From an uncultured Spartobacteria bacterium (lineage in GTDB: Bacteria; Verrucomicrobiota; Verrucomicrobiia; Chthoniobacterales; UBA6821): a DNA stretch of 34,983 nt. Numbering within the stretch: the first letter of the stretch is position 1; each line of letters opens with the position of its first letter. The stretch is from NCBI GenBank assembly GCA_903868795.1, contig CAIPWR010000002.1:1-34983 (forward strand), given 5' to 3'. This document shows, piece by piece, positions 1-17,405 of the stretch. Both the position numbers and the translations under genes were made by a program. Under the pieces are notes generated by a model, which saw only the letters and a program-made list of their open reading frames with translations, did no database searches and was not told the origin of the DNA.

Positions 1-1569
1 CAGTCGCTTCATGCCGAAGATACCAACGCACTCGGAGCAGTCGCCGCAAAAGAACTTCCTCCGATTGCTCCAGGACGCTTCCAGCCAACGGACGAATCCC
101 TGAAGCAGTATCAATATCCTGAGTGGTTTCGCGACGCGAAACTCGGATTCTGGTCTCACTGGGGACCGCAGGCCGTGCCGCGCCACGGCGATTGGTATGC
201 GAGGAAACTCTACATCGGGACGGGCTACGTTGACCAAAGGAAAGGGACCGTGGCGAAGCAGAATGAATCCGATTACACCGATCACCTTGCCCGCTACGGC
301 CACCCTTCCGAGAAAGGCTACAAGGACATCATTCCTCTCTGGAAAGCCGAGAAGTGGGATCCCGAAGCCCTGATGGCGCTCTACAAGAAAGCGGGGGCAA
401 AATACTTCGTCAGCATGGGAACCCACCATGACAACTTCTTCATGTGGGACTCAAAGTTGCACAAGTGGAATGCCGTGCAGATGGGGCCTCACAAGGATGT
501 GGTCGCTACCTGGCAGAAAGCGGCCAAAGCCAACGGCCTCCCCTTTGGTGTCTCCGAACACCTTGCGGCGAGTTACACTTGGTTTCAAGCCGCTCATGGG
601 GCCGATGTCCAGGGGCCGAAGAAGGGAGTGCCCTACGACGGGAACGATCCGAAGAATCAGGATCTCTACCACAAGAAGCTTCCGGCCGACGATCATGAGT
701 GGCTGACAAAAGATCCCGAAAACCAGAAGGAGTGGAACGCCATGATCCGCGAATTGGTGGATACCTATCATCCCGACCTCCTCTATTCCGACAGCAAATT
801 GCCTTTTGGTGACGTGGGCCGAAATCTAATCGCCAACTTCTACAACGGCAACGAGGCCTTCCATAACGGCAAACTGACAGCGGTCTACAACTGCAAGGAA
901 CCCTCCCAGGGCCGCTTCGTTCAGGATCTGGAGCGCGGCGTGAAGGATGATATCAGTCCCTACCCATGGCAGACCGACACCTCCATCGGCGATTGGTTTT
1001 ACAGCACTGGCCAAAAGTACAAGAGCGCAGCCGAGGTGACCGCGATGCTCTGTGATATCGTCAGCAAAAACGGCAACCTGCTCATCAACATCGTCCAGAC
1101 GCCGGAGGGAGACCTTGAGCCGGACGTGCTCGCCATAGTCGACGGGATAGGCAAATGGACCGCGATCAACGGTGAGGGAATTTATGCCACCCGACCTTGG
1201 AAGATCTCGGGAGAGAATCCTTCACCCGCTTCACCGACACCGACTCCCGATCCGAAGAAGAGCGAGATGTTCAATGAGGGAAAGCAAAAACTGAACGCTC
1301 AGAACATCCGCTTCACCATGAGCAAGGATGGCAAGACCCTCTATGCGTTCTGCCTTGGTGAACCGCAGGGGGACATTGCAATCAAGGCCCTCGGATCAGC
1401 ATCGGGCAAGTTGGAGAAGCCGATCGCTTCCGTCACCCTGCTTGGTGGCAAAAATGATCTCACGTGGAAGCAGAACGCAGATGTCTTGATGATCACAAAG
1501 CCTGCCACGTGCCCGCTCCCAGGCATGCCCGTCGGCTTCAAAATCACCTTCAAGGAAACTAAGGAGTAA
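1..1569 (+). CDS. GH29 alpha-L-fucosidase family hydrolase, 5' partial
   Basis: The reading frame is already open at base 1, so the true start and any signal peptide lie outside the window; the GTG at 175 is internal. The window start encodes the GH29 signature PEWFRDAKLGFWSHWGPQ, followed by a HHDNFFMW strand. PDLLYSDS follows, whose second Asp (codon 790-792) is the likely catalytic nucleophile of this retaining family. SKNGNLLINI closes the barrel. A Pro/Thr-rich linker (SPTPTPDP, about 1222-1257) leads to a C-terminal beta-sandwich domain. GH29 enzymes release terminal alpha-L-fucose, and some members act on alpha-L-galactose. It is the first visible gene of a nine-gene operon, and the downstream enzymes suggest its product is oxidised to 6-phosphogluconate, which favours L-galactose. 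Family assignment is firm; substrate is inference. Confidence 0.93.
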   Translation, partial: QSLHAEDTNALGAVAAKELPPIAPGRFQPTDESLKQYQYPEWFRDAKLGFWSHWGPQAVPRHGDWYARKLYIGTGYVDQRKGTVAKQNESDYTDHLARYGHPSEKGYKDIIPLWKAEKWDPEALMALYKKAGAKYFVSMGTHHDNFFMWDSKLHKWNAVQMGPHKDVVATWQKAAKANGLPFGVSEHLAASYTWFQAAHGADVQGPKKGVPYDGNDPKNQDLYHKKLPADDHEWLTKDPENQKEWNAMIRELVDTYHPDLLYSDSKLPFGDVGRNLIANFYNGNEAFHNGKLTAVYNCKEPSQGRFVQDLERGVKDDISPYPWQTDTSIGDWFYSTGQKYKSAAEVTAMLCDIVSKNGNLLINIVQTPEGDLEPDVLAIVDGIGKWTAINGEGIYATRPWKISGENPSPASPTPTPDPKKSEMFNEGKQKLNAQNIRFTMSKDGKTLYAFCLGEPQGDIAIKALGSASGKLEKPIASVTLLGGKNDLTWKQNADVLMITKPATCPLPGMPVGFKITFKETKE

Positions 1570-1578
1570 ATCGACACC

Positions 1579-2514
1579 ATGGAATACCGCATTCTCGGCA
1601 AAACAGGCATCAAGGTCTCGAAGCTTGCCTTCGGCGGCTCGTCCCTCGGCTCCGTCTTTCGTTCCGTTGCGGAGGAAGATGGGATCCGTACCGTCCATAC
1701 GGCGCTCGATCACGGGATCAACCTCATCGATACCGCCCCTTACTACGGTGCCACGAAAGCGGAGGCTGTCTTGGGAAAAGCCCTCAAGGGTGTCGCACGA
1801 GAGCGGTACTTGCTGGCTACCAAGGTGGCCCGTTTCGGTGCCGAGATCGGGGACTTTGATTTCTCCGCCGCGAGGGTTGCCTCAAGCATTGAGGAGAGTC
1901 TGGAACGGCTCGGCGTCGATCACTTCGACTTCATCCAAGTGCATGACATGGAGTTCGGAAACATTGATCAGATCGTCAGTGAGACCATACCAGCCTTACG
2001 CCAGGCCCAAAAGGCTGGTAAGGCACGGTTCGTCGGCATCACCTGCCTGCCGGTACGCCTGTTCAAGCAGGTGATGGATCAGGTCGATATCGACCAGATC
2101 CAGTCCTACTGTCACTACGGACTCAACGACACGGTACTTGCCGACATCCTTCCCTACCTGAAGGAAAAGCAGGTCGGCATCTTTAACTCCGCACCGCTCG
2201 CCATGCGCCTGCTCACCCAGGAGGGTCCTCCCGCATGGCACCCAGCACCTTTAGAGGTACAGGCCAAGTGTGCCGAAGCCGCCGCCTACTGTGCCTCGCA
2301 GGGAGCCGATTTTGCGAAGCTGGCACTCCAGTTTTCGGTGGCCCATCCCGACATCCACACGACAATCGTCGGCACGGCGAACCCCGAACGGATCCTCGAA
2401 AATATCCGCCAGATTGAGGAACCGATGGACGCTTCCCTCCTGGCTAGGGTGCAGGAAATCCTCAAGCCAATCCATAATGTCACTTGGTCAAGCGGCCGCC
2501 CTGAGAACAACTAA
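1579..2514 (+). CDS. Aldo-keto reductase, L-galactose/L-fucose 1-dehydrogenase-like
   Basis: This is a 311-residue AKR barrel with the tetrad visible as D51, Y56, K82 and H122. From memory it closely resembles plant L-galactose dehydrogenase across its length: FDFSAARV, SIEESLERLGVD, HDMEFGN, QIVSETIPAL, VGITCLP, SYCHYGLND, SAPLAMRLLT and GPPAWHPA all have near-identical counterparts there. Bacterial relatives oxidise L-galactose, L-fucose and D-arabinose at C1 to the lactone with NAD(P). It follows the GH29 gene by 9 nt and has an AAGGAG ribosome-binding site overlapping that gene's stop, one of the few clear ones here. The likely role is oxidation of the sugar freed by the GH29 enzyme. Fucose versus galactose preference cannot be read from the sequence alone. 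Confidence 0.88.
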   Translation: MEYRILGKTGIKVSKLAFGGSSLGSVFRSVAEEDGIRTVHTALDHGINLIDTAPYYGATKAEAVLGKALKGVARERYLLATKVARFGAEIGDFDFSAARVASSIEESLERLGVDHFDFIQVHDMEFGNIDQIVSETIPALRQAQKAGKARFVGITCLPVRLFKQVMDQVDIDQIQSYCHYGLNDTVLADILPYLKEKQVGIFNSAPLAMRLLTQEGPPAWHPAPLEVQAKCAEAAAYCASQGADFAKLALQFSVAHPDIHTTIVGTANPERILENIRQIEEPMDASLLARVQEILKPIHNVTWSSGRPENN

Positions 2515-2532
2515 ATTCAACAACCCAAACCC

Positions 2533-2925
2533 ATGCTCAAATCCGGCATTCTCAATCCTGACATCCTCTCCCTAATAGCTCGGGTCCGTCATACCAACAC
2601 AATCGTGATCGCAGACCGGGGATTCCCGTTCTGGCCTCAGATCGAAACGATCGACATCTCGCTGATCGACGGACTGCCGACCGTGAATCAGGTTCTCGAG
2701 GCCCTGCTTCCCTCCGTCGACATGGGTCAGGCCTACATGGCGAAGCAGTTCACCGCCGTGAATCCAAAAACCGTGGTGGCGGTCCGGAAAAAGATTCTTG
2801 GCAAGATCCCCCTCTCCTTTGAAGACCACGAGGCTTCGTTCAAGAAGCGTATCCTCGGAGCGATCGGGCTGATCAGGACGGGCGATACCACGCACTATTC
2901 CAACATCATCCTCGTCTCGGCCTGA
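2533..2925 (+). CDS. RbsD/FucU family sugar mutarotase (pyranase)
   Basis: The 130-residue protein matches the size of RbsD/FucU mutarotases. The active-site residues known from RbsD are at the expected places: H20 and D28 in RHTNTIVIADRGFP, H99 in FEDHE, and Y122 and N124 in the C-terminal HYSNIIL strand. These enzymes speed the interconversion of ring and anomeric forms of free sugars, and family members form ring-shaped decamers. Sitting between the dehydrogenase and the putative lactone hydrolase, it probably supplies the anomer the dehydrogenase uses (L-fucose or L-galactose). There is no Shine-Dalgarno sequence; the leader is A/C-rich (caacaacccaaaccc). RbsD versus FucU subtype is not resolved; context favours the FucU-like role. 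Confidence 0.85.
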   Translation: MLKSGILNPDILSLIARVRHTNTIVIADRGFPFWPQIETIDISLIDGLPTVNQVLEALLPSVDMGQAYMAKQFTAVNPKTVVAVRKKILGKIPLSFEDHEASFKKRILGAIGLIRTGDTTHYSNIILVSA

Positions 2926-2936
2926 GGCTCTTGCCG

Positions 2937-3590
2937 ATGCGTCTGATCGACCTCTCCCAGCCCGTCACCGATGGCGGGCCAAATTGCCCGGTCCACCCCC
3001 CGATCTCTGCAAAAGTCGTGGCAACGCATGCCAAGGACAATTGGCACATGGAGGTAATCACGCTGGCCACCCACACCGGCAGCCATCTCGATGCACCTCT
3101 TCACAAGATCGATGGCGGGAAATCGATCGATCAGATTCCCCTCGAGTCTTTCTTAGGGGAGGCAGTGCTTGTGGATCTCCTCGACTCTACTGCGGACAGA
3201 TCAATCGGTGCCGAGTTGCTGGCTTCACGCCTCGAGGGAGACCTCACGGATCGTATCATCCTACTGGCCACTGGCTGGGGGGAATTCCGTGCCGCCACTG
3301 ACGAGTGGCACTTCCATTCGCCTTACCTCGCCCCCTCCGGGGCACAGTGGCTTGTCGATCAGGGGATCCGTGCCGTCGGAATCGACCATTATTCCATCGG
3401 TGGAAGCCGTGATCCGGACAACACGCGCACCCACGAGATCCTGCTCGGCAACGGACTCTGGGTTGTGGAAGACCTGCGTTTCCCTGTCGAGATCTTTGCT
3501 ATCGGGCCCCGCTTTCGATTCATGGCCCTACCGATAAACTTTCCCGGACACTCCGGCGCCTTCTGCCGCCCGGTCGCCGTGATTGAATAA
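2937..3590 (+). CDS. Cyclase-family metal-dependent hydrolase, candidate aldonolactonase
   Basis: The 217-residue protein carries the cyclase/kynurenine formamidase-family metal motif HxGxHxDxPxH as H46-T-G-S-H50-L-D52-A-P-L-H56, and a conserved GIDHYSIGG segment further on. The family (PF04199) contains zinc or manganese hydrolases that open amide or ester rings, such as kynurenine formamidase and isatin hydrolase. I chose the ATG at 2937, 11 nt after the preceding stop, over a TTG six bases earlier, because it fits the usual MRLIDLSQP start. No tryptophan genes are nearby. Between an aldose 1-dehydrogenase and aldonate enzymes, the missing step is lactone hydrolysis, so I infer an aldonolactonase. 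That function is not proven for this family branch. Confidence 0.8.
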   Translation: MRLIDLSQPVTDGGPNCPVHPPISAKVVATHAKDNWHMEVITLATHTGSHLDAPLHKIDGGKSIDQIPLESFLGEAVLVDLLDSTADRSIGAELLASRLEGDLTDRIILLATGWGEFRAATDEWHFHSPYLAPSGAQWLVDQGIRAVGIDHYSIGGSRDPDNTRTHEILLGNGLWVVEDLRFPVEIFAIGPRFRFMALPINFPGHSGAFCRPVAVIE

Positions 3591-3622
3591 ATAGCCCCAT
3601 CACCTCACCAACTCCACCTACC

Positions 3623-4861
3623 ATGAAGCTCCCAACATTCACACTCGGCATCGGCGACCGCTTCGCTCACCAGGGAAAAGCCCAACTTCGCGCCCTTCAA
3701 AAAGCGGTTGCGCACGGAGTCGAGGTCTCGCCGGTCTGGAACAAGTCCAACCGCGAACACAACCTGATCGGCACGGAGCCATCCTCCTTGCGAGCCGAAG
3801 CGGATGAGGCGGTCGCCTCCCTTGGTTGGAAGGCGCCCTACTTCGTCGACGCGGATCATATCAACCTGAAAACCGTCGACCGCTTCCTGGAGGCCTCCGA
3901 CTTTTTCACGATCGATGTGGCTGACTCGATCGGAAAAGAACCCGATCCCGCCGCCGTCGAGCGTTTGGTGGCAAAGCATGCCGGCGATCCGATCGATTAT
4001 CCGGGTCTTTCCATGCCGATTCTCAGAGGCAGGGAGCAGATCGCCAATGCCGCCGCAAAATTCCTGGCCGCGATGCAGGAAGCCGGGGAGGTCTACCGTC
4101 ATATCGCTGCCCGCAAGCCTGCGGGATCGTTCGCCGTCGAGGTCTCCACTGACGAAGCCTCGGCACCACAGACACCCGCCGAACTCTACCTCATCCTCGC
4201 GATGCTGGCCGATGAGGGAGTTCCCGTGGCCACAATCGCTCCGAAATTCACCGGCCAGTTCAATAAGGGTGTCGATTACGAGGGAAACATCGCCGACTTC
4301 ACCCGCGAGTTTGAGGATGATCTCATCGTGCTCAAACATGCCGGTCCGGCCCTTGGACTTCCCGAGGGACTGAAACTCAGCGTTCACTCCGGCAGCGATA
4401 AGTTCAGCATCTATCCCGTGATCAATCGTCTGGTGAAGAAGCACGGCTCGGGACTCCACCTCAAGACGGCCGGCACAACTTGGCTCGAGGAGATCGCGGC
4501 GATCGCAGGATCGGGGGAAGAGGGAAAAACCTTGGCCGCGGGTATCTATGCCGATGCCCTCGCCCGCTACGAGGAGGTCACGGCACCCTATGCCACGGTG
4601 CTTCATATTGACAAAGCGCTGCTTCCTCCTGCCGTGGAGGTGGTCTCTTGGGACGGAGCACGTCTTTCCCGTGCGATCATCCATGAGCAGACCTGCCCAG
4701 ACTTCAATCCCCACGTTCGACAGCTTTTTCACGTCGCCTTCAAGCTTGCCGCCGAATCCGGCTCCAAGTTCACGGATCTGCTCAAGCTGCATGATGAAGC
4801 CGTTGGCACAGCCGTGACCGGCAATCTTTGGGAGCGCCATCTCAAGCCCCTGTTCCTCTAA
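3623..4861 (+). CDS. uxaE: UxaE-like tagaturonate epimerase family protein
   Basis: The 412-residue protein has features I associate with the tagaturonate 3-epimerase family: GIGDRFAHQGKAQL at the N-terminus, VDADHINL (75-82), EVSTDE (173-178), APKFTGQFNKGVDYEGN (206-222) and KLSVHSGSDKFSIYP (251-265). UxaE interconverts D-tagaturonate and D-fructuronate at C3 and is a metal-dependent, probably TIM-barrel enzyme. The next two genes encode a dehydrogenase able to make tagaturonate and a fructuronate reductase, so the predicted substrate has both a source and a sink in this operon. The start lacks a Shine-Dalgarno and follows an A/C-rich leader (caccaactccacctacc). A related epimerisation on a deoxy analogue cannot be excluded. 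Confidence 0.82.
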   Translation: MKLPTFTLGIGDRFAHQGKAQLRALQKAVAHGVEVSPVWNKSNREHNLIGTEPSSLRAEADEAVASLGWKAPYFVDADHINLKTVDRFLEASDFFTIDVADSIGKEPDPAAVERLVAKHAGDPIDYPGLSMPILRGREQIANAAAKFLAAMQEAGEVYRHIAARKPAGSFAVEVSTDEASAPQTPAELYLILAMLADEGVPVATIAPKFTGQFNKGVDYEGNIADFTREFEDDLIVLKHAGPALGLPEGLKLSVHSGSDKFSIYPVINRLVKKHGSGLHLKTAGTTWLEEIAAIAGSGEEGKTLAAGIYADALARYEEVTAPYATVLHIDKALLPPAVEVVSWDGARLSRAIIHEQTCPDFNPHVRQLFHVAFKLAAESGSKFTDLLKLHDEAVGTAVTGNLWERHLKPLFL

Positions 4862-4879
4862 CGCCAACGACCATCTGCC

Positions 4880-5899
4880 GTGAATGCCATCATCCTCAGC
4901 GAACCCGGAAAACTCGCCCCTCATGACGCACCCGAACCTGCAACACCTGGAGTCGGCGAGGCCCTGATCCGTGTCCACCGTATCGGTTTCTGCGGCACCG
5001 ATTATCATGCCTTTCACGGCAGGCAGCCGTTCTTCGACTATCCGCGTATTCTCGGCCATGAACTCGGCGTCGAGGTTCTGGCGGTCGGGGAGGGGGTTTC
5101 AAATATTGCGGTCGGCGACAAATGCAGCATCGAGCCCTATTTGAACTGCGGCTCCTGCCACGCTTGCCGCAAGGGCCGCGCCAACTGCTGCAGCAACATG
5201 AAGGTTCTCGGCGTCCATGTGGATGGGGGAATGAGGGAGCGTCTAGTAGTTCCTGCAGCCAAACTGCACGTTTCCAAAACCCTCTCTTACGATGCCCTCG
5301 CCTTGGTGGAGACCTTGGCGATCGGCGCGCATGCCATCGACCGAGCGGCCGTCGAAAAAGACGAGACCGTCGTGGTGATCGGAGCGGGTCCGATCGGGTT
5401 GGCCGCCGTCCAGTTTGCCCTATTGCGCGGCGCCCGCGTGATGGTGATCGATCGTGCCGCTCCCCGTCTTGAGGCCTGCTCTCGTCTCTATCCCGCGGTA
5501 ATCACTCTAGATCCCGAAAAATCGTTCATCGAACAGCTGACTTCGATCACGTGCGGAGATCTTGCCGACACGGTGATTGATGCCACCGGCAATCTCGCCT
5601 CCATGGGAGGCTCGCTCGAGTATGTGGGCCACACGGGGCGACTTGTCTATGTCGGGCTCGCACAAGGAGAGGTCACTTTTAATGATCCGCTCTTTCATCG
5701 TCGTGAGATAACTCTCCTCGCGAGCCGGAATGCCCTTTCCAAAGATTTCCCGGAGATCATCAGCGCCATGGAGCAGGGCAAGATCGATCCCCTTGCCTGG
5801 ATCACTCACCGCTGCACCCTTGCTGAAATTCCGGAAAAGCTACCTCTGTGGAGTGAGCCGAAGGCGGGTGTGATCAAGGCGGTTGCTTCCCTCTCCTGA
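4880..5899 (+). CDS. Zinc-dependent alcohol dehydrogenase, L-galactonate 5-dehydrogenase-like
   Basis: This is a 339-residue medium-chain dehydrogenase. Catalytic-zinc residues are C38 and H60-E61 (GHE), structural-zinc cysteines are C90, C93, C96 and C104, and the NAD-binding GAGPIG is at 169-174. Close families are threonine/sorbitol dehydrogenases and the E. coli LgoD (YjjN) type that oxidises L-galactonate at C5 to D-tagaturonate. Context decides: the gene lies 18 nt after the UxaE-like epimerase and 20 nt before a fructuronate reductase-type SDR, so tagaturonate formation is the natural role. The start is GTG at 4880 with no visible ribosome-binding site. Enzyme class is sure; the LgoD role is inferred. 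Confidence 0.85.
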   Translation: MNAIILSEPGKLAPHDAPEPATPGVGEALIRVHRIGFCGTDYHAFHGRQPFFDYPRILGHELGVEVLAVGEGVSNIAVGDKCSIEPYLNCGSCHACRKGRANCCSNMKVLGVHVDGGMRERLVVPAAKLHVSKTLSYDALALVETLAIGAHAIDRAAVEKDETVVVIGAGPIGLAAVQFALLRGARVMVIDRAAPRLEACSRLYPAVITLDPEKSFIEQLTSITCGDLADTVIDATGNLASMGGSLEYVGHTGRLVYVGLAQGEVTFNDPLFHRREITLLASRNALSKDFPEIISAMEQGKIDPLAWITHRCTLAEIPEKLPLWSEPKAGVIKAVASLS

Positions 5900-5919
5900 A
5901 TCGGTGAATATCCCCTCTC

Positions 5920-6747
5920 ATGAAGTCATCAATAGATTCCAAAACGCTTTTTGATCTCACTGGAGAAGTCGCCGTGGTGATCGGTGCCACCGGTGTCCTT
6001 GGCGGTGCGGTCGCCGAGGGGCTTGCATCCTCAGGAGCGACGGTAGCCGTGCTTGGACGCAATGCTGAGCGTGGCGCCGAATGCGTTGCCCGAATCGTTG
6101 CGGCGGGTGGGAAAGCTGATTTTTTCCCTGCTGATGCCTCTTCGCGCGATAGCCTTGAGAAAGCACTGGTTGCGATTTCACGTGTCCATGGAGAGCCGAC
6201 CATCCTGGTCAATGCGGCCGGTGGCAACGATCCCTCCGTAACAGTGACCGCCGAGAATCCCTTCGAGAAAATCAGCGAAACGGATTGGACGAAAAGCTTC
6301 GACATGAACTTAGTTGGAGGAGCGCTTTTGCCATGTCAGGTCTTCGGCAGCGCCATGGCGGATAAAGGGCGCGGCAGCATCATCAACATCGCCAGCGTCT
6401 CCGCGCATCTTCCGCTCTCCCGCGTGGTCGCCTACTCTTCGGCCAAAGCCGCGGTCCTTAATCTGAGCCAATTTCTTGCCCGCGAATGGGCTCCTAAGGG
6501 AGTCAGGGTGAATACGATCACTCCAGGATTCTTCCCTGCAGAGCAGAACCGAAAGCTTCTCTTCAACGACGACGGATCTCCGACCCCACGGGCGGCCAGC
6601 ATCCTAGGCCACACACCCATGGGTCGGTTCGGCACCTCTTCCGAATTGATTGGAGCCGCGGTATTCCTTGCGAGTAATGCTGCCAGCGGTTTTGTCACGG
6701 GAATCGACCTGCGTGTGGACGGTGGATTCCTCAGCCAGACCATCTGA
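5920..6747 (+). CDS. uxuB: SDR oxidoreductase, D-fructuronate reductase (UxuB/YjmF type)
   Basis: The 275-residue classical SDR has the nucleotide-binding GATGVLG at 22-28, NAAGG at 98-102, and the catalytic set S159 / Y172 / K176 (YSSAK). The stretch PGFFPAEQNRKLL and the C-terminal ILGHTPMGRFG with FVTGIDLRVDGGF are typical of Bacillus/Thermotoga-type D-mannonate oxidoreductases, which reduce D-fructuronate to D-mannonate. These are unrelated to the E. coli long-chain UxuB. It directly follows the tagaturonate-forming and epimerising enzymes, as expected. No mannonate dehydratase (UxuA) follows; instead a LarA-like protein and a gluconokinase do. Confidence 0.85.
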   Translation: MKSSIDSKTLFDLTGEVAVVIGATGVLGGAVAEGLASSGATVAVLGRNAERGAECVARIVAAGGKADFFPADASSRDSLEKALVAISRVHGEPTILVNAAGGNDPSVTVTAENPFEKISETDWTKSFDMNLVGGALLPCQVFGSAMADKGRGSIINIASVSAHLPLSRVVAYSSAKAAVLNLSQFLAREWAPKGVRVNTITPGFFPAEQNRKLLFNDDGSPTPRAASILGHTPMGRFGTSSELIGAAVFLASNAASGFVTGIDLRVDGGFLSQTI

Positions 6748-6758
6748 TCACTCAATCG

Positions 6759-8021
6759 ATGAGCGCTCATCTCACCGCAGAACAGGTCGCCGCGATTGTT
6801 GCCAAAGGCATTCCGGCGGAAGGAATGAGAGGCAAGCGCGTGCTGCTGATCATTCCCGATGCGACACGGAGCTGCCCGCTCGGGATGGTGTTCAAGGAAG
6901 TTTATAACCATCTCGTTTCCGAAGTTGCTTCCTTGGATGTGATGGTCGCCCTTGGGACACACCCCCCGATGAGCGAGGAGGCTATTTGTGAGCGCCTCGA
7001 GATCACGCCGGAGGAGCACGCCTCTCGGTATGCCAAGGTCGGGTTTCTCAACCACGAATGGGATAATCCGAATGCCCTCAGGCAGATCGGTGTTCTCACT
7101 CCTGCCGAAATCAGTGATCTCTCCGGCGGGCTCTTCTCAATGGAAGTGCCCGTCACTATCAATGAGCGTCTTTTCGATTACGACGAACTGCTGATTATCG
7201 GCCCAGTTTTCCCGCATGAGGTTGTCGGTTTTTCTGGAGGCAACAAGTACCTTTTCCCCGGCGTTGCTGGGCCGGAAATCCTGAATTTCTTCCATTGGCT
7301 GGGAGCGGTCGTTACGAATCCGATGATCATCGGCCACAAGTGGACACCCGTTCGGAAGGTTGTTGACCGGGCTGCCGCCCTTGTGCCGATCCCGAAGCGC
7401 TGCCTTTGCATGGTCGCGGACAAAGGCGGCCTAGCCGGACTCTTTGCCGGCACGCCGGAGCAGGCTTGGGACGAGGCTTCCGAACTTTCCCGGAAGCTCC
7501 ATATCACGACCAAACCGCATCCCTTCCATACCATCCTCTCGTGCGCCCCGGCGATGTACGACGAGCTCTGGGTCGGCGGCAAATGCATGTACAAGCTGGA
7601 GCCTGTGCTTGCCGATGGCGGAGAGCTGATCATCTACGCACCACACATCCATGAGGTCTCGGTGGTTCATGGCAAGCTGATCGAGGAGATCGGCTATCAC
7701 TGCCGCGATTATTTCCTCGGCCAGTGGGACCGGTTCAAGCATTACCCTTGGGGAGTCATCGCGCACAGCACGCACGTCCGCGGGGTAGGAACCTACGAAA
7801 ACGGTGTCGAACAGTGCCGCGCCAAGGTGACCCTTGCCACGGGGATTCCCAAGGAGATCTGCGAGCGGATCAACATGGGATACCGTGATCCAGCTTCGAT
7901 CCGGATCGAGGACTTTGCCGATCGCGAGGAGGAGGGGGTTCTCCTCGTGCCGAAGGCTGGCGAGATGCTTTTCCAACTCGAGAATCCGGCGCCATGGGCG
8001 GCTGGTTGTGACCGTCCATGA
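6759..8021 (+). CDS. LarA-superfamily nickel-pincer racemase/epimerase, candidate D-mannonate/D-gluconate 2-epimerase
   Basis: The 420-residue protein belongs to the lactate racemase (LarA) superfamily. Key LarA residues are present: DATRSCP (D34, R37), GTHPPM (H68), PHEVVGFSGGNKYLFPG (H153 and K163) and FFHW (H179). The H153-K163-H179 spacing (10 and 16) equals LarA H174-K184-H200, including the lysine that carries the nickel-pincer cofactor and the nickel-binding histidine. LarA enzymes invert the hydroxyl carbon next to a carboxylate. Here the preceding enzyme would deliver D-mannonate, and the next gene, overlapping by ATGA, is gluconokinase. The simplest role is therefore 2-epimerisation of D-mannonate to D-gluconate. 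The cofactor genes larB, larC and larE are not in this window. Family is firm; substrate is a strong inference. Confidence 0.87.
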   Translation: MSAHLTAEQVAAIVAKGIPAEGMRGKRVLLIIPDATRSCPLGMVFKEVYNHLVSEVASLDVMVALGTHPPMSEEAICERLEITPEEHASRYAKVGFLNHEWDNPNALRQIGVLTPAEISDLSGGLFSMEVPVTINERLFDYDELLIIGPVFPHEVVGFSGGNKYLFPGVAGPEILNFFHWLGAVVTNPMIIGHKWTPVRKVVDRAAALVPIPKRCLCMVADKGGLAGLFAGTPEQAWDEASELSRKLHITTKPHPFHTILSCAPAMYDELWVGGKCMYKLEPVLADGGELIIYAPHIHEVSVVHGKLIEEIGYHCRDYFLGQWDRFKHYPWGVIAHSTHVRGVGTYENGVEQCRAKVTLATGIPKEICERINMGYRDPASIRIEDFADREEEGVLLVPKAGEMLFQLENPAPWAAGCDRP

Positions 8022-8500
8022 GCCTTCATGTGGTCATGGGGGTTTCGGGCTGCGGAAAAAGCAGCGTTGCTGCACGGCTTGCTACTGCCAAGGGGGGAGA
8101 CTTTCTGGATGCCGATGATTTCCATCCGTCGGCCAATAAAGCAAAGATGGCGGCAGGCATTCCCCTTCAGGATGAGGACCGTGCGGGCTGGTTGGACACC
8201 TTGAATGCAGAATTAAAGAGTCGCGCAGCAAACGGCAGGGATACCTTCCTAGCCTGCTCTGCCCTGAAGCAGATTTACCGAGATCGCCTCTCCGCAGGGC
8301 TGCCTTCCTTGGGTTTCATCTATCTGAAAGGCTCGCGCGAGGCGATCCGAAGCCGCCTGGAGCGACGCACGGATCACTTCATGCCTTCTACGCTTTTGGA
8401 AAGTCAGTTTTCCACGCTGGAGGAACCGACGGGTGCCTTGACGGTCTCGATTGAGCAATCTCTCGAACATGTCGTCGAAGAGATCCTTAAGAGGATCTGA
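8018..8500 (+). CDS. gntK: Gluconokinase
   Basis: The 160-residue P-loop kinase has the usual GntK size. Walker A is GVSGCGKSS (8-16), followed by the family blocks DADDFHPSANKAKM, GIPLQDEDRAGWL, CSALKQIYRDRL and HFMPSTLLESQF-LEEP. It phosphorylates D-gluconate at O6 to 6-phosphogluconate, feeding the Entner-Doudoroff or pentose phosphate route. Its ATG overlaps the stop of the LarA-like gene (ATGA, 8018-8021), a sign of translational coupling and of a shared pathway. A 6-bp hairpin at 8482-8497 lies in its last codons. It is the last gene of the operon; the next gene is convergent. Its need for a C6 hydroxyl constrains the pathway: a 6-deoxy (fucose-derived) acid could not be its substrate. 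Confidence 0.95.
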   Translation: MSLHVVMGVSGCGKSSVAARLATAKGGDFLDADDFHPSANKAKMAAGIPLQDEDRAGWLDTLNAELKSRAANGRDTFLACSALKQIYRDRLSAGLPSLGFIYLKGSREAIRSRLERRTDHFMPSTLLESQFSTLEEPTGALTVSIEQSLEHVVEEILKRI

Positions 8501-8533: not shown

Positions 8534-9385
8534 TCAGGAGCGTGACTGCCAAGCACTGGGCGTCATTCCGGTCTGTCGACGGAACCAACGGGAGAAGTAA
8601 TTCGCATCGGAAAAACCGAGCCGCACCGCTGTCTCCCCGATCGCGCCCCCCTTGGCAAGTTCCCGCTCGCTGGCACGGAGCATTTCTTTGGCACGCCATT
8701 GTCCCAGGGTCAGGCCTGTGGATCGTCTGACAAGACGGTTCAGATAGTCCTGCTGCAGTCCGACGCGGCGAGCGAGTTCTCCGGGAGTTGGCGGTAGTCC
8801 CTCCCGGTCTATTGATCGGAGCAGGCGCCTGGTGACCGCCGTGCCTTGTCTTGAAGTGACGGGATGGGCCACGCAAGCCCGGCGGCACGACTCGAGAAGG
8901 AGCAAGGCTGTGCCTCCAGCGCCGAGCTCCAGGTTGCCTGATCGCTCCGACCGATCCGGGCTTTCATGGGCAAGCTGATTAAGGCGTTCGCGGACCTGCG
9001 CCAGCTCTTCGGCCGGCAGCCAACCGGTTCCTCGCCCGAATTTTCTCGGCCCCTCCCCGCCCAGATCAGCCACCAGGCAGATCGCCAGTCGGGGGGCTTC
9101 TTCGAGAAACGCATGCTCAGTCCCCGCGGGAATGAAAAAGACCGCTCCTGGCGCGACGGGGTGAAGCTCTCCTCCAATTCGCTGCCGTCCCCTGCCTCGC
9201 AGATAGACGAGAAGTTGTCCGTGGGAATGGCGGTGGGGGCTCTCCTTGTCGAAGGGCTGCAGATGGCGGTTAAGCCTAAGCTCGTTCACCGACCAGTCTC
9301 CGCAGCGCAGGTGAAGGCGCTTCAATAGGATCGGCCGTAATGGGGAATCTCCCTTTTTTCTGGCGGATTTTCTGGCGGTTGGCAT
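8534..9385 (-). CDS. AraC-family transcriptional regulator with cupin sensor domain
   Basis: In this 283-residue protein an N-terminal cupin/AraC-binding domain (about 25-170, with HRHSH at 51-55 and IPAGTEHAF) precedes a C-terminal double helix-turn-helix domain (about 185-283). The latter includes ARRVGLQQDYLNRLVRR and the family signature GFSDANYFSRWFRRQTGMTP. Such regulators sense small molecules, usually sugars, and activate adjacent catabolic genes. It is convergent with the gluconokinase operon (33 nt apart) and divergent from the SDR-GH88 operon, so it most likely controls the latter and possibly both. The start is ATG (complement of 9383-9385). Ligand unknown. Confidence 0.93.
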   Translation of the reverse strand: MPTARKSARKKGDSPLRPILLKRLHLRCGDWSVNELRLNRHLQPFDKESPHRHSHGQLLVYLRGRGRQRIGGELHPVAPGAVFFIPAGTEHAFLEEAPRLAICLVADLGGEGPRKFGRGTGWLPAEELAQVRERLNQLAHESPDRSERSGNLELGAGGTALLLLESCRRACVAHPVTSRQGTAVTRRLLRSIDREGLPPTPGELARRVGLQQDYLNRLVRRSTGLTLGQWRAKEMLRASERELAKGGAIGETAVRLGFSDANYFSRWFRRQTGMTPSAWQSRS

Positions 9386-9495
9386 GAAGGTATGATGGCA
9401 GCTAAAACTAGGACGAAGAATAAAGTCGTTATTGTGCTAAAAAAAGCGTTTTCAGCCGATGCGTGGGTGCACCTTTCCTGCCAAGATTTTCCAAT
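9386..9495. promoter_or_regulatory. Divergent promoter region between the AraC gene and the SDR-GH88 operon
   Basis: These 110 bases separate two divergent genes, so both promoters and any operator should be here. The AT-rich core at about 9405-9455 contains a short inverted repeat, aataa-agtcg-ttatt (9419-9433), followed by gctaaaaaaagcg. I could not settle on convincing -35/-10 pairs. Treating this as the regulator's binding region is inference from layout. Confidence 0.45.
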
Positions 9496-10284
9496 ATGAG
9501 CAGACCTGTCGTTCTTGTTACCGGAGCCAGCCGCGGTCTTGGCCGTGGCATCGCCCTCACTCTTGCCGCCGAAGGATACGATCTCGCGATCCATTACGCC
9601 TCCAATGCAACTGCCGCCGAGGAGACCGTTGCCGCCTGCAAGGCCGTGGCAAAGAGCCCGGAGCAGCGTTTCCTTCCTGTCTCCGCGCAACTCGCCTCCT
9701 CCGAACAGCGTGCCTCGATGATGGAGAAGGTGATCAGCGAACTCGGTCACCTTGATGCCTTGGTCAATAACGCCGGCATGGCACCCCGTGAACGCGCCGA
9801 TATCACGGAGGCTAGTGAGGCAAGCTTTGATGAGCTGATCTCGGTAAATCTCAAGGGGCCCTATTTCCTCAGTCAGCTAGCCGCCAATTACTGGCTCAAG
9901 CACCCTAGCGCATCCCGTTTGGCCGGAGGTTACAAGCTGCTCTTCGTGACCTCCATTTCTGCAGCGACCGCCTCCGTGAACCGAGGTGACTACTGCATCT
10001 CCAAGGCCGGCTTGGCGATGGTCTCCCAGCTCTGGGCCTCGCGCCTTGCCGCCGAGGGTGTTCAAGTTCTCGAGCTTCGTCCCGGAATCATGGCAACCGA
10101 CATGACCTCCGGAGTGAAGGGTAAGTACGATGCTCTCATTGCCGATGGCCTCGTTCCTCAGAAGCGCTGGGGCAATCCAGAGGATGTGGGTCTCGCGGTG
10201 AAGGCGATCTGCCGCGGCGACTTCCCTTTCAGCACCGGCGATGTCATCTACCTCGACGGCGGCTTCCATATCAGCCGACTCTAA
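9496..10284 (+). CDS. SDR oxidoreductase (3-ketoacyl-ACP reductase-like), probable uronate-pathway enzyme
   Basis: This is a 262-residue classical SDR: GASRGLG (10-16), NNAG (91-94), Ser in VTSIS (about 153-155), Y166 and K170 (YCISK), and a C-terminal TGDVIYLDGGFH. It is annotated as FabG-like by family. However, its position as first gene of an operon with a GH88 hydrolase, a cupin and a 2-keto-3-deoxygluconate kinase-like enzyme suggests a KduD/DKI-reductase-type sugar-acid role rather than fatty-acid synthesis. I chose the ATG at 9496, which begins MSRPVVLVTG; the GTG 33 bases upstream would add a non-homologous tail. No ribosome-binding site is visible. Confidence 0.87.
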   Translation: MSRPVVLVTGASRGLGRGIALTLAAEGYDLAIHYASNATAAEETVAACKAVAKSPEQRFLPVSAQLASSEQRASMMEKVISELGHLDALVNNAGMAPRERADITEASEASFDELISVNLKGPYFLSQLAANYWLKHPSASRLAGGYKLLFVTSISAATASVNRGDYCISKAGLAMVSQLWASRLAAEGVQVLELRPGIMATDMTSGVKGKYDALIADGLVPQKRWGNPEDVGLAVKAICRGDFPFSTGDVIYLDGGFHISRL

Positions 10285-10311
10285 TTCACCCATCACCCTC
10301 CGCAGATTCCC

Positions 10312-11694
10312 ATGATAACACTTGATACAACACTGACTCCCTCCACGCTGAAGGGGGCTGCTGACCGCGTCTTCGAGGCCTCAGCACCGAAAATCGCCAA
10401 CCTTCAGAAGCGCTGGAAGGATGCGGACGGCACCCCGGTCTTCACCATCGAAGGCAAATACACTTCCCGTGGATGGACCGAGTGGACGCAGGGCTTCCAG
10501 TACGGGGCCGCAATCCTTCAGTACGACGCCACGGGCGACGAGGAGATGCTTCGTATCGGTCGCGAAGGAACGCTTCGCCTCATGGCTCCGCACATCACCC
10601 ACATCGGTGTCCATGACCATGGCTTCAACAATGTCAGCACTTACGGCAATCTCCGCCGCCTCTTGCAGGAGGGTCGTCTGCCAGCCAATGAGTGGGAGGG
10701 GCATTTCTACGACCTCGCGCTGAAGGCAAGTGGTGCAGTCCAGGCCTCCCGCTGGACGCAGCTCACACCTGAACTCGGCTACATCTATTCTTTCAACGGA
10801 CCACACTCGCTGTTCTCCGACACCGTGCGTTCCCTTCGTGCGCTTGCAGTGGGCCACTCCCTTGGTCACCGCCTGATGGGTGAGAATGACAAGGCCTCCT
10901 CGCTCCTCGGACGCATTATCCAGCACGCCGAGACGACGGCCCGTTATAACGTCTACTACGGCAAGGGACGCGACATTTATGACCTTCCCGGACGCGTCGT
11001 CCACGAGTCGATCTTCAACACGAATGACGGCAACTACCGCTGCCCCTCAACCCAGCAGGGCTATACCCCTTTCTCCACTTGGACACGTGGCCTTGCCTGG
11101 ATCCTCTGTGGCTATCCCGAGCAGATGGAATACCTTGAGCAGCTCTCAGACGCCGAGCTAGCCCCCTTAGGTGGCAAGCAGGCCCTGCTCGACCGTTACC
11201 TCGAGGTCTCCACAGCCGTGGCGGAGTTCTACATCCGCGAGACCCCCACCGACGGTATCCCCTACTGGGATACCGGTGCTCCCGGACTTGTCCATCTCGG
11301 AGACTACAACGACCGTCCCGCCGATCCCTTCAATGACCATGAACCAGTCGACAGCTCTGCCGCCGCCATCGGTGCTCAGGGATTGCTTCGTCTTGGTCGC
11401 TACCTCGATCGCCATGGAAAGAAAGAGGAGGGCGCCCGTTACACGGCCGCCGGTCTCACTGCTGCCAAAACCCTCTTCTCAGAGCCTTACCTCAGCCTCG
11501 ATCCCAACCACGAGGGACTTCTTCTCCATACCGTCTACCACCGTCCCAACGGATGGGATCACATCCCTGCCGGCCGCAAGGTTCCTTGCGGCGAATCGGC
11601 CATGTGGGGTGACTACCATCTCCGCGAGTTGGCACTTCAGATCCAGCGCCTCGCCACGGGTGCTCCCTACCTCACCTTCTTCGGCAAGATTTGA
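10312..11694 (+). CDS. GH88-type unsaturated uronyl hydrolase
   Basis: The 460-residue (alpha/alpha)6-barrel hydrolase resembles unsaturated glucuronyl hydrolases. GVHDHGF (D102) fits the first catalytic aspartate motif, and D170 in HSLFSDTVRSL is a candidate for the second. FNDHEPVDSSAAAIGAQGLL and the C-terminal block YHRPNGWDHIP / PCGESAMWGDYHLRELAL are typical of the family. GH88 enzymes hydrate the double bond of 4,5-unsaturated uronic acids on lyase-made oligosaccharides, releasing an unstable unsaturated monouronate. There is no signal peptide, so it is probably cytoplasmic. The neighbours supply plausible next steps (cupin, SDR, kinase). The polysaccharide (pectin, ulvan or glycosaminoglycan) is not identifiable. 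Confidence 0.85.
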   Translation: MITLDTTLTPSTLKGAADRVFEASAPKIANLQKRWKDADGTPVFTIEGKYTSRGWTEWTQGFQYGAAILQYDATGDEEMLRIGREGTLRLMAPHITHIGVHDHGFNNVSTYGNLRRLLQEGRLPANEWEGHFYDLALKASGAVQASRWTQLTPELGYIYSFNGPHSLFSDTVRSLRALAVGHSLGHRLMGENDKASSLLGRIIQHAETTARYNVYYGKGRDIYDLPGRVVHESIFNTNDGNYRCPSTQQGYTPFSTWTRGLAWILCGYPEQMEYLEQLSDAELAPLGGKQALLDRYLEVSTAVAEFYIRETPTDGIPYWDTGAPGLVHLGDYNDRPADPFNDHEPVDSSAAAIGAQGLLRLGRYLDRHGKKEEGARYTAAGLTAAKTLFSEPYLSLDPNHEGLLLHTVYHRPNGWDHIPAGRKVPCGESAMWGDYHLRELALQIQRLATGAPYLTFFGKI

Positions 11695-11703
11695 TCTAAC
11701 AGT

Positions 11704-11731
11704 CTTCAGCCTAAAACCCAAACAGCCTAAC
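11704..11731. repeat. Paired 'cagcctaa' repeats in the GH88-cupin gap
   Basis: Two copies of cagcctaa (cttcagcctaaa and aacagcctaac) lie in the 39-nt gap before the cupin gene. The same octamer or its complement recurs at about 13408-13424, 14552-14587 and 14829-14836, always outside the coding regions I assigned. Confidence 0.6.
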
Positions 11732-11733
11732 CA

Positions 11734-12183
11734 ATGATCATCGCAGACCTCGCCCAAACAGCCGGCCGCACCTATCCGGCCCGTCGCCGCACCCAGAATA
11801 TCGTCGGGGGTGTTTCCCCGATCCAGGCCACTAACTTCGCCATGGGGAACGTGACCCTAGAACCGAACGGAGGCCAGGTTCCCTGGCACAATCAGGAACA
11901 GGAGGAGGTCTACTTCATCGTCGAGGGAGAGGGGGAGATGTGTCTCGGTGAAGAGAGAGTTGCGGTCAAGGCAGGTCAAGCCGCCTACTTCCCCTCCGGC
12001 ATCTTCCACCAGCTCACCAACACCGGCTCGACCCCGATGCGCATGATCTACGTCTATGGACCCGCCGGTGATGTCGCCCACTGGAAGCAGGAGCTGGAGG
12101 GAACACTTCCTCCTGCGGGCGTCGGCGCCACTCCGCCACTGCCTGCCGGTGCCCAGCCTCAGTGCACCAAGAAACCTGAATAA
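11734..12183 (+). CDS. Small cupin-domain protein, candidate unsaturated-uronate isomerase
   Basis: This single-cupin protein of 149 residues has motif 1 WHNQEQEEVYFIVEGEGE and motif 2 PSGIFHQLTNTG. The metal ligands appear to be His, Gln and Glu plus a later His, a variant of the usual His-His-Glu-His set. A low-complexity Pro/Gly/Ala tail follows residue 125. It sits between the GH88 hydrolase and an oxidoreductase. Small cupins of the KdgF type convert 4,5-unsaturated monouronates to their linear keto form, which would fit directly after GH88. I see no KdgF-specific signature, so this is a context guess. Cupin family membership is certain. Confidence 0.85.
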   Translation: MIIADLAQTAGRTYPARRRTQNIVGGVSPIQATNFAMGNVTLEPNGGQVPWHNQEQEEVYFIVEGEGEMCLGEERVAVKAGQAAYFPSGIFHQLTNTGSTPMRMIYVYGPAGDVAHWKQELEGTLPPAGVGATPPLPAGAQPQCTKKPE

Positions 12184-12228
12184 TTCTGTTCAACCCATTC
12201 ACAAAACAACCACACCAACATTGAAATT

Positions 12229-13383
12229 ATGAAAGAACACCGCATCGGCATCATCATGAACGGCGTCACGGGACGCATGGGTACCAACCAGCACCTCCTT
12301 CGCTCCATCAAGGCGATCATCGACCAAGGTGGAGTCCGCATCGGTGACGATGAAGTCATCATCCCGAACCCGATTCTTGTCGGACGTAGCGCTTCCAAGC
12401 TGGTCGAGTTGGCCAAGCGGGCGGGTCTTCCCGAGGATCGTATCTCCACCGATCTGGATGCCGTGCTCAAAGATCCGGAGAACCAGATTTATTTCGACTC
12501 CACTCTTACCGGACAGCGGCCCTCGGGAGTCCGTAAGGCAATCAAGGCTGGAAAGCACATCTACTGCGAGAAGCCGACTGCCACGACCTCGGCCGAAGCG
12601 CTTGCACTTTATCAAGAGGTGACCGCTGCTGGCCTGAAGAACGGTGTTGTTCAGGACAAGCTCTGGCTCCCAGGTCTCCTCAAACTCAAGTACCTCATCG
12701 ACACCGGCTTCTTCGGCGAGATCCTCTCCGTACGGGGTGAGTTCGGATACTGGGTCTTCACTGGCGAACACGAGAAGCTCCAGCGTCCCTCTTGGAACTA
12801 CCGTAAAGAAGATGATGGCGGCATCATCGTCGACATGCTCTGCCACTGGCAGTACGTCATCCAGAATCTCTTCGGCGAGATCAAGTCGCTCACCTGCCTA
12901 GGTGCCACCCACATTCCGACGCGTTGGGATGAGAAGGGAAAGACTTACAAGTGCACGGCTGATGATTCCGCCTACGCCACCTTCGAGCTGGAGAATGGCG
13001 TGATCTGTCACTTCAACTCCTCCTGGACCGTTCGTGTGAACCGCGAGGATCTGCTGACCCTCCAGGTAGATGGAACCAAGGGAAGCGCCGTTGCCGGACT
13101 CCGTGACTGCAAAGCCCAGGCTCATGCCGCCACACCTCGTTGCGTGTGGAATCCCGATATCGACAGCCCGATCGACTACAAGGATGGCTGGACCCGCGTC
13201 CCTTCCAACGACACTTACGACAACGCCTTCAAGGTGCAGTGGGAGCTTTTCCTCAAGCACGTGGTGAAGAACGAACCCTTCCCTTGGAATCTCCTTCAAG
13301 GCGCCAAGGGAGTTCAGCTTGCCGAACTTGGCCTCCAGTCCTGGGAGGAGCGTCGCTGGTTGGACGTTCCCAAGCTCGGCTGA
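12229..13383 (+). CDS. Gfo/Idh/MocA family oxidoreductase
   Basis: The 384-residue protein has an N-terminal Rossmann fold with an unusual GVTGRMG (12-18) nucleotide loop. The family hallmark EKP (114-116, GKHIYCEKPT) is followed by an alpha/beta substrate domain with DDGGIIVDMLCHW providing the typical Asp/His pair. These enzymes oxidise or reduce sugars and inositols with NAD(P). In this operon it probably acts on the sugar acid or an uncommon sugar released with the uronate. The exact reaction cannot be told. The leader is A/C-rich with no Shine-Dalgarno (aaaacaaccacaccaac). Confidence 0.9.
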   Translation: MKEHRIGIIMNGVTGRMGTNQHLLRSIKAIIDQGGVRIGDDEVIIPNPILVGRSASKLVELAKRAGLPEDRISTDLDAVLKDPENQIYFDSTLTGQRPSGVRKAIKAGKHIYCEKPTATTSAEALALYQEVTAAGLKNGVVQDKLWLPGLLKLKYLIDTGFFGEILSVRGEFGYWVFTGEHEKLQRPSWNYRKEDDGGIIVDMLCHWQYVIQNLFGEIKSLTCLGATHIPTRWDEKGKTYKCTADDSAYATFELENGVICHFNSSWTVRVNREDLLTLQVDGTKGSAVAGLRDCKAQAHAATPRCVWNPDIDSPIDYKDGWTRVPSNDTYDNAFKVQWELFLKHVVKNEPFPWNLLQGAKGVQLAELGLQSWEERRWLDVPKLG

Positions 13384-13443: not shown

Positions 13444-14544
13444 ATGTCCATCCTGACACTTCGTCCTGCAGAACAATGCCGCTATGATGAGATCTCCATG
13501 GGGGAGGTCATGCTCCGCCTCTGCCCGGGAGAGGGCCGCATCAAGACAACCCGTTCCTTCAAGGCCTCCGAGGGAGGTGGCGAGTACAACGTGGCCCGGG
13601 GACTCCGTCGCTGCTTCGGACTGCGCACCGCGCTCCTGAGCGCTTTCGCGGAGAACGAAGTTGGCAGGTTGATCGAGGATCTGATCCTTCAGGGCGGAGT
13701 TGACGACACCTTCGTCAAGTGGGTCCCCTACGACGGCATCGGGCGCACTGTTCGCAATGGACTCAACTTCACCGAGCGTGGCTTCGGCGTGCGCGGCGCG
13801 GTGGGTGTCTCCGACCGCGGCATCACCGCCGCCTCGCAGATCAAGCCCTCCGACTTCGACTGGGATCACATCTTTGGCACGCTGGGAACCCGCTGGTTCC
13901 ACACAGGCGGAATCTTTGCGGCACTCAGCGAGAGCGCGGCCGAGACCGTCATCGCGGCCACCGAGGCGGCGCACCGCAACGGCGTCATCGTTTCCTACGA
14001 CCTCAACTACCGCCCTTCACTCTGGAAGGCGATCGGGGGCAAAGAGAAGGCGCAGGCAGTCAATAAGCACATCGCCAGGAACGTCGATGTCATGATCGGC
14101 AACGAAGAGGACTTCACTGCCTGCCTCGGCCTCGAGGTCAAGGGAGCCGACCACAACCTCACCAACCTCGAGCTCGACAGCTTCAAGGCAATGATCGCCG
14201 AGGCCGTGAAGGCCTACCCTAACTTCAAGGTCGTCGCCACCACGATGCGTGGTGTGAAGACCGCCACCATCAACGACTGGGGCGCCATCTGCTGGGCGGG
14301 CGGGAAGTTCTATGAATCGACTCACTATCCCGATCTCGAGATCCTGGATCGCGTCGGCGGCGGAGACAGCTTCGCTTCCGGACTGATCTACGGATTCCTC
14401 ACCACCGATGATCCGCAGATAGCGGTCAATCTCGGTGCCGCCCACGGGGCGCTTGCGATGACCACACCCGGCGACACCTCGATGGCCTCGCTTTCAGAGG
14501 TTAAGAAGCTCGCCGGCGGCGGTGGAGCCCGGGTAGATCGGTAA
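13444..14544 (+). CDS. kdgK: PfkB-family sugar kinase, 2-keto-3-deoxygluconate kinase-like
   Basis: This is a 366-residue ribokinase-fold protein. The substrate-binding N-terminus has SEGGGEYNVARGL, the middle has SYDLNYRPSLW, and the catalytic signature is DRVGGGDSFASGL with base D308. The SYDLNYRPSLW segment resembles 2-keto-3-deoxygluconate kinases. Its product, 2-keto-3-deoxy-6-phosphogluconate, is the normal end of the unsaturated-uronate pathway implied by the GH88 and SDR genes. No KDPG aldolase gene is in the window. It is longer than typical KdgK (about 310-340) because of insertions around 220-250. Kinase class is certain; substrate probable. Confidence 0.85.
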   Translation: MSILTLRPAEQCRYDEISMGEVMLRLCPGEGRIKTTRSFKASEGGGEYNVARGLRRCFGLRTALLSAFAENEVGRLIEDLILQGGVDDTFVKWVPYDGIGRTVRNGLNFTERGFGVRGAVGVSDRGITAASQIKPSDFDWDHIFGTLGTRWFHTGGIFAALSESAAETVIAATEAAHRNGVIVSYDLNYRPSLWKAIGGKEKAQAVNKHIARNVDVMIGNEEDFTACLGLEVKGADHNLTNLELDSFKAMIAEAVKAYPNFKVVATTMRGVKTATINDWGAICWAGGKFYESTHYPDLEILDRVGGGDSFASGLIYGFLTTDDPQIAVNLGAAHGALAMTTPGDTSMASLSEVKKLAGGGGARVDR

Positions 14545-17384: not shown

Positions 17385-17405
17385 GGGTTGTGTGGGTTGT
17401 TTTAG

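Follow-up and report, generated by a model that had tools for sequence, protein, structure and literature searches.

The conversion of D-mannonate to D-gluconate by an NPN-dependent (nickel-pincer) enzyme of the LarA superfamily has been assayed for GntE2 (LarAH20) of Thermotoga maritima (PDB 4NAR; PMC7583248), and a eukaryotic GntE was reported later (PMC11770544). Both the D-mannonate/D-gluconate 2-epimerase reaction and the enzyme type are already published, and the D-gluconate 2-epimerase of the LarA superfamily to which the original prediction for the locus described here refers does exist. In T. maritima, the operon gnd-uxaRED-gntEK is pectin-responsive (PMC3750489), and uxaE-uxaD-gntE-gntK together with gnd has been proposed as a pathway (PMC3750489, PMC6978723). 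PMC6978723 credits the proposal of a bypass leading from mannonate to gluconate to Rodionova et al. (2012). Bacterial catabolism of L-galactose, as described so far, runs via altronate and KDG (PMC12632266).

We analysed a stretch of 34,983 nucleotides (the window) from an uncultured Spartobacteria bacterium (assembly GCA_903868795.1, contig CAIPWR010000002.1). The original prediction had picked out positions 6759-8500 as a LarA homologue coupled to gluconokinase. The open reading frame of the LarA-superfamily protein is intact and encodes 420 amino acids, which match Lar_N of Pfam with 65 bits (cut-off 23.3). The predicted NPN-binding and catalytic set was found as D34-x-x-R37, H68, H153, K163 (+10), H179 (+16) and K275, and the D-R, H and H-K-H pattern with spacings of 10 and 16 had thus been read correctly. 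All seven residues are invariant in an alignment of 17 rows, containing the protein and 16 relatives that are 55-81% identical. In comparison with 4NAR, they align with D38, R41, H154, K164 and H180 of GntE2, the roles of which are taken from PMC7583248. Judged from the alignment, agreement of this kind in residues and spacing is far beyond chance.

The full-length protein found its best PDB match in 4NAR (E=2.8e-64), with other LarA proteins at E values of at least 1.8e-5, and a profile built from its family scored 299 bits against 4NAR and at most 60 bits against lactate and malate racemases. An AlphaFold2 model (mean pLDDT 86) also had 4NAR as its top fold match in the PDB, with a TM score of 0.83 at ~34% identity; closeness to GntE2 is thus a closeness among solved relatives, with 4NAR as the one characterised gluconate epimerase in the comparison. 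The E-V loop that follows the second catalytic histidine (H153-E154-V155) and the alpha-11 tryptophan (W271) are present. An E-V/S loop and this tryptophan mark the hexonate groups 18-20 (PMC7583248), and are thus shared by the gluconate epimerases of groups 19/20 with the putative epimerases of group 18. The only hexonate-epimerase model in NCBIfam, NF052594 (group 18 putative hexonate epimerase), was the best match of the protein and was matched by all 17 rows of the alignment. However, the score of 173 bits lies far below the cut-off of 500, and we therefore place the protein, on its sequence, in the hexonate branch but not as an equivalog of NF052594.

The grouping beside GntE2 supports the candidate function given in the original prediction, and the protein is very probably a GntE of the groups 19/20 type, which would use NPN to interconvert D-mannonate and D-gluconate by epimerisation at C2. 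By analogy with LarA, K163 would anchor NPN and H179 would ligate the nickel, while H68 and H153 would act as acid and base, and the hydrogen at C2 would pass to the cofactor as hydride and return to the other face. We considered whether the protein might instead epimerise another hexonate, or convert 6-phosphomannonate to 6-phosphogluconate after GntK had phosphorylated mannonate. For GntE1, which belongs to a related group, the Km with mannonate is high (PMC7583248), and the phosphorylated order was shown in extracts of Lactobacillus suebicus (PMC6978723). Yet GntE2, the closest characterised relative, acts on free D-mannonate (PMC7583248), and the gluconokinase of Escherichia coli does not use mannonate, as quoted in PMC6978723. 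We regard either variant as improbable.

A check suggested along with the prediction was for NPN-cofactor genes in the same genome, and LarB, LarC and LarE were all found, the LarB gene being split over C146 and C65, two contigs that overlap at their ends by 141 identical bases. Gnd was also found in the genome, and UxaC was found elsewhere in it, outside the operon. The mannonate dehydratase UxuA was not found in this assembly, which is 97% complete. As to other exits, a single PF13378 match turned up in the genome (contig C74), which scored 135 against 550 for ManD and resembles 3tj4 instead. The sole ILVD_EDD protein passes as IlvD (760 bits, cut-off 618) but falls well short of the Entner-Doudoroff enzyme Edd (255 against 708). 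Since UxuA, ManD and Edd are all absent from the 97% complete assembly, no other recognised exit is left for free mannonate, and 6-phosphogluconate would enter the pentose phosphate pathway. The proposal that this organism may bypass mannonate dehydratase thus stands.

On contig C74 (locus L210, 9-2151), a zinc-dehydrogenase of the type found in the window lies beside the enolase-superfamily dehydratase, which is closest to 3tj4 (454 bits) and falls under all NCBIfam cut-offs; this pair may belong to a further sugar-acid route.

The span 6759-8500 proved to be only the tail of a longer operon, whose start is cut off by the contig edge at position 1. The part within the window (1-8500) holds nine genes that all point the same way and are spaced by -4 to 32 nt, and gntE is the eighth of them (Table 1). 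The L-galactose-type genes upstream of gntE, like the T. maritima uxaE-uxaD-gntE-gntK and gnd precedent, lay outside the original prediction. That prediction had also held that the stop of the epimerase gene overlaps the gntK start and that the upstream SDR is of the mannonate-forming type; the overlap is 4 nt with both frames intact, and the SDR passes the cut-off of the NCBIfam model 'D-mannonate oxidoreductase'.

Table 1. Genes of the operon and selected neighbours in the window.
Feature	Position	Strand	Basis or remark
GH29 glycosidase, candidate exo-alpha-L-galactosidase or fucosidase	1..1569	+	Pfam Alpha_L_fucos
Aldo-keto reductase (AKR), L-galactose 1-dehydrogenase type	1579..2514	+	PDB sequence matches
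RbsD/FucU-family mutarotase	2533..2925	+	Pfam RbsD_FucU 91.7 bits
PF04199 'cyclase' hydrolase, candidate L-galactonolactonase	2931..3590	+	Pfam Cyclase 96.6 bits
UxaE, predicted tagaturonate/fructuronate epimerase	3623..4861	+	Pfam UxaE 173 bits, cut-off 27.1
Zn-dependent dehydrogenase, candidate L-galactonate 5-dehydrogenase	4880..5899	+	Pfam ADH_N, ADH_zinc_N
SDR, predicted D-mannonate oxidoreductase (fructuronate reductase)	5920..6747	+	NF006132 308 bits, cut-off 281
GntE, predicted NPN-dependent D-mannonate/D-gluconate 2-epimerase	6759..8021	+	Lar_N, 4NAR match, conserved residues, model
GntK, predicted gluconokinase, 160 aa	8018..8500	+	TIGR01313 178 bits, cut-off 113.75; ATGA overlap with gntE
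AraC-family protein carrying a cupin domain, convergent to the operon and possibly its regulator	8534..9385	-	Pfam HTH_18, Cupin_2
PfkB kinase, KDG-kinase-like	13444..14544	+	5 kb downstream of operon

The 5' end of the GH29 gene is cut by the contig start, and its frame is open from base 1. Its best PDB matches, an alpha-L-fucosidase (7snk) and an exo-alpha-L-galactosidase (7ljj), scored 203 bits each. For the AKR, L-galactose dehydrogenases take all five top places among PDB sequences, led by 9w6y (E=2.6e-106 over residues 1-310), and the next AKR follows at E=5e-25. Every PDB match of UxaE is a UxaE (best 6ilb, E=1.1e-27). The zinc-dehydrogenase falls under every NCBIfam equivalog cut-off (best model 196 against 376), and, among the AKR loci compared, nearly every one has an ADH of its type beside the AKR. 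The role of the PF04199 hydrolase as a candidate lactonase is suggested by position only and is the weakest step of the scheme; the hydrolase holds the same place in a second cluster of this assembly described below.

Between the operon and the PfkB gene (9463-13383), a second SDR, a 460-residue protein whose sole match, to GH88, stays below threshold, and a GFO/IDH/MocA oxidoreductase lie in a row. Elsewhere in the window, one ORF (33378-34970, minus strand) combines an acyltransferase_3 domain with ankyrin repeats, and two adjacent ORFs of 387 (-) and 319 (+) residues at 16221-18482 had no Pfam match.

A comparison of L-galactonate with D-gluconate showed that their stereocentres differ at C2, C3 and C5. 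Because each of these positions is covered by the operon (C2 by GntE, C3 by UxaE, and C5 by the zinc-dehydrogenase together with the SDR), because GntK needs a 6-hydroxyl, and because LguA and LguD provide precedents, we read the operon as a route from L-galactose to 6-phosphogluconate. LguA of Luteolibacter, an AKR related to that of the window, accepts L-galactose but not L-fucose, and LguD oxidises L-galactonate (PMC12632266). In the proposed scheme, GH29 would release L-galactose, the RbsD/FucU protein would speed anomer exchange, the AKR would oxidise C1, and the PF04199 hydrolase would open the lactone. L-Galactonate would then be oxidised at C5 to D-tagaturonate by the zinc-dehydrogenase, inverted at C3 by UxaE to give D-fructuronate, and reduced at C5 by the SDR to D-mannonate; GntE would invert C2 to yield D-gluconate, GntK would form 6-phosphogluconate, and Gnd would pass this on to the pentose phosphate pathway. 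We infer the substrate of every enzyme here, while gene order, families, residues, the presence of larB, larC, larE and Gnd, and the absence of UxuA can be read off the DNA directly. For the identity of GntE and this function of the nine-gene operon taken jointly, we estimate a probability of about 0.7.

The front of the operon could also be viewed as serving L-fucose, with a GH29 fucosidase, an L-fucose dehydrogenase and a FucU mutarotase leading to 6-deoxy acids. L-fucose use typically involves the families GH29 and FucU, the second cluster in this assembly begins with a FucP-type permease, and the GH29 protein matches fucosidase and L-galactosidase equally. However, a 6-deoxy acid would offer GntK no 6-hydroxyl, and on this ground we rejected the idea; moreover, a Pfam search of the cluster found no L-fuconate dehydratase, and the AKR falls with the L-galactose dehydrogenases, the related LguA being inactive on L-fucose. 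We consider an L-fucose operon highly improbable.

GntE relatives (at least 50% identical) were present in 33 of the 388 genomes of the phylum that were sampled; named GntE records are nearly all from Verrucomicrobiota, and the nearest are from Spartobacteria. Of 80 named GntE loci, 42 have an SDR directly beside GntE and on its strand, and four have GntK within 4 kb. UxaC was seen near GntE in 8 of the 80 named and 13 of 32 phylum loci, and Gnd in 5 and 12, respectively, the two sets overlapping in some genomes. Because UxaC or Gnd is often close by, and because the nearest relative (L084) has the order SDR-GntE-GntK-UxaC, the gene neighbourhoods indicate that the usual job of GntE in the relatives is hexuronate breakdown. 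AKR, dehydrogenase and GH29 genes were found near GntE in none of the 80 named loci, and the joining of GntE to L-galactose genes is so far seen in this window only, on one contig.

These neighbourhoods bear on a further possibility, in which GntE has the function given above but the back half of the operon is mainly a module for galacturonate and glucuronate, as in T. maritima, and the upstream sugar-dehydrogenase genes are used separately. The UxaC gene in this genome, the UxaC or Gnd genes beside SDR-GntE in relatives and the place of the T. maritima operon in a pectin regulon (PMC3750489) all fit such an arrangement. Since UxaC is encoded elsewhere in the genome, hexuronates may indeed also feed SDR-GntE-GntK. 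Yet UxaC lies outside this operon, and two separate units are unlikely given nine co-directional genes so closely spaced, in which the dehydrogenase gene stands between those of UxaE and the SDR; in a congener (G334), UxaE and the dehydrogenase likewise accompany L-galactose genes. We therefore regard a mainly hexuronate function as unlikely, and L-galactose as the likely source of mannonate for GntE, which would join two known modules.

GntE and full-length UxuA co-occurred in none of the 33 genomes with GntE, compared to UxuA in 91 of the other 355 (Fisher p=1.5e-4, kinship among the 388 phylum genomes being ignored). We give this mutual exclusion little weight, because relatedness is ignored and four GntE genomes contain weaker UxuA-like matches (E 1e-82 to 1e-68). 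In three genomes (G170, G182 and G331; loci L046, L047 and L057), a UxuA-like gene (E about 1e-81) lies some 2 kb or less from GntE, and mannonate might there be directed either to dehydration or to epimerisation.

The second L-galactose cluster of this assembly lies on contig C148 (L194, 1-10791), and its lower half would follow the altronate/KDG route. It contains, in order, a FucP-type permease, GH29, AKR, RbsD, PF04199, an altronate/galactarate-type (UxaA-like) dehydratase, a tagaturonate reductase of the UxaB type (364 bits, cut-off 359), a dehydrogenase and a KDG-kinase-like PfkB. GH29, AKR, RbsD and PF04199 are 84-92% identical to those of the window and the dehydrogenase 80%, whereas the UxaA-like dehydratase, tagaturonate reductase and PfkB stand in place of UxaE-SDR-GntE-GntK; by its gene content, this lower half is of the known lgu type (PMC12632266). 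At the DNA level, the dehydrogenase-PfkB block is 97.8% identical to G334, whereas the front block is closer to the window (79%) than to G334 (76%). This mosaic may indicate either recombination or a mis-binned contig.

In G334 (L195, 9368-17627), the order is GH29-AKR-RbsD-UxaE-dehydrogenase-PfkB-aminotransferase. PfkB directly follows the dehydrogenase both there and on C148, but is displaced downstream in the window; G334 has no counterpart of the genes at 9463-13383 between its cluster dehydrogenase and PfkB. Neither GntE nor UxuA was found in the G334 genome, and the fate of fructuronate there is not accounted for by our scheme, which counts against it. Comparison of the window, C148 and G334 thus reveals three different lower halves behind the same front genes. 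On balance, we think it probable that the window encodes a complete, KDG-free bacterial L-galactose pathway to 6-phosphogluconate with an essential nickel-pincer step, in which L-galactose oxidation genes have been coupled to a UxaE-SDR-GntE-GntK module, and that members of one genus exchange altronate and mannonate/gluconate lower halves downstream of a common set of front genes.

L-Galactose is a rare sugar of red-algal and plant polysaccharides. If the scheme is correct, an NPN enzyme would gain a defined place in catabolism, a second and KDG-free bacterial route for this sugar would be predicted, and the operon would provide an enzyme set for converting L-galactonate to D-gluconate by three inversions. 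The literature searched, with most subscription journals outside it, held no description of an L-galactose route combined with a mannonate/gluconate epimerase, which is weak evidence of novelty; what the sequence suggests is an already known enzyme within a novel combination of pathways.

Among the known systems, that of T. maritima (GntE2 and gnd-uxaRED-gntEK) shares with the window the fold, the catalytic residues, UxaE, a reductase, GntE, GntK and 6-phosphogluconate as the predicted product. Unlike the window, it is fed by galacturonate through UxaC, and has neither L-galactose genes nor an L-galactonate dehydrogenase. The route from galacturonate to phosphoketolase in L. suebicus (PMC6978723) likewise leads from mannonate to 6-phosphogluconate and bypasses mannonate dehydratase, but there phosphorylation precedes epimerisation, as seen in extracts. 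The lgu pathway of Luteolibacter LG18 (PMC12632266) resembles the front of the operon in its AKR L-galactose dehydrogenase and, if the zinc-dehydrogenase of the window has its candidate function, in a dehydrogenase converting L-galactonate to D-tagaturonate. The same two dehydrogenase activities belong to the L-galactose pathway of Phocaeicola vulgatus, as cited in PMC12632266. A Pfam search of the window operon found neither tagaturonate reductase nor altronate dehydratase, and both are present on C148. In LG18, tagaturonate proceeds to D-altronate and then through KDG and KDPG aldolase, whereas in the window UxaE, the SDR, GntE and GntK would carry it to 6-phosphogluconate.
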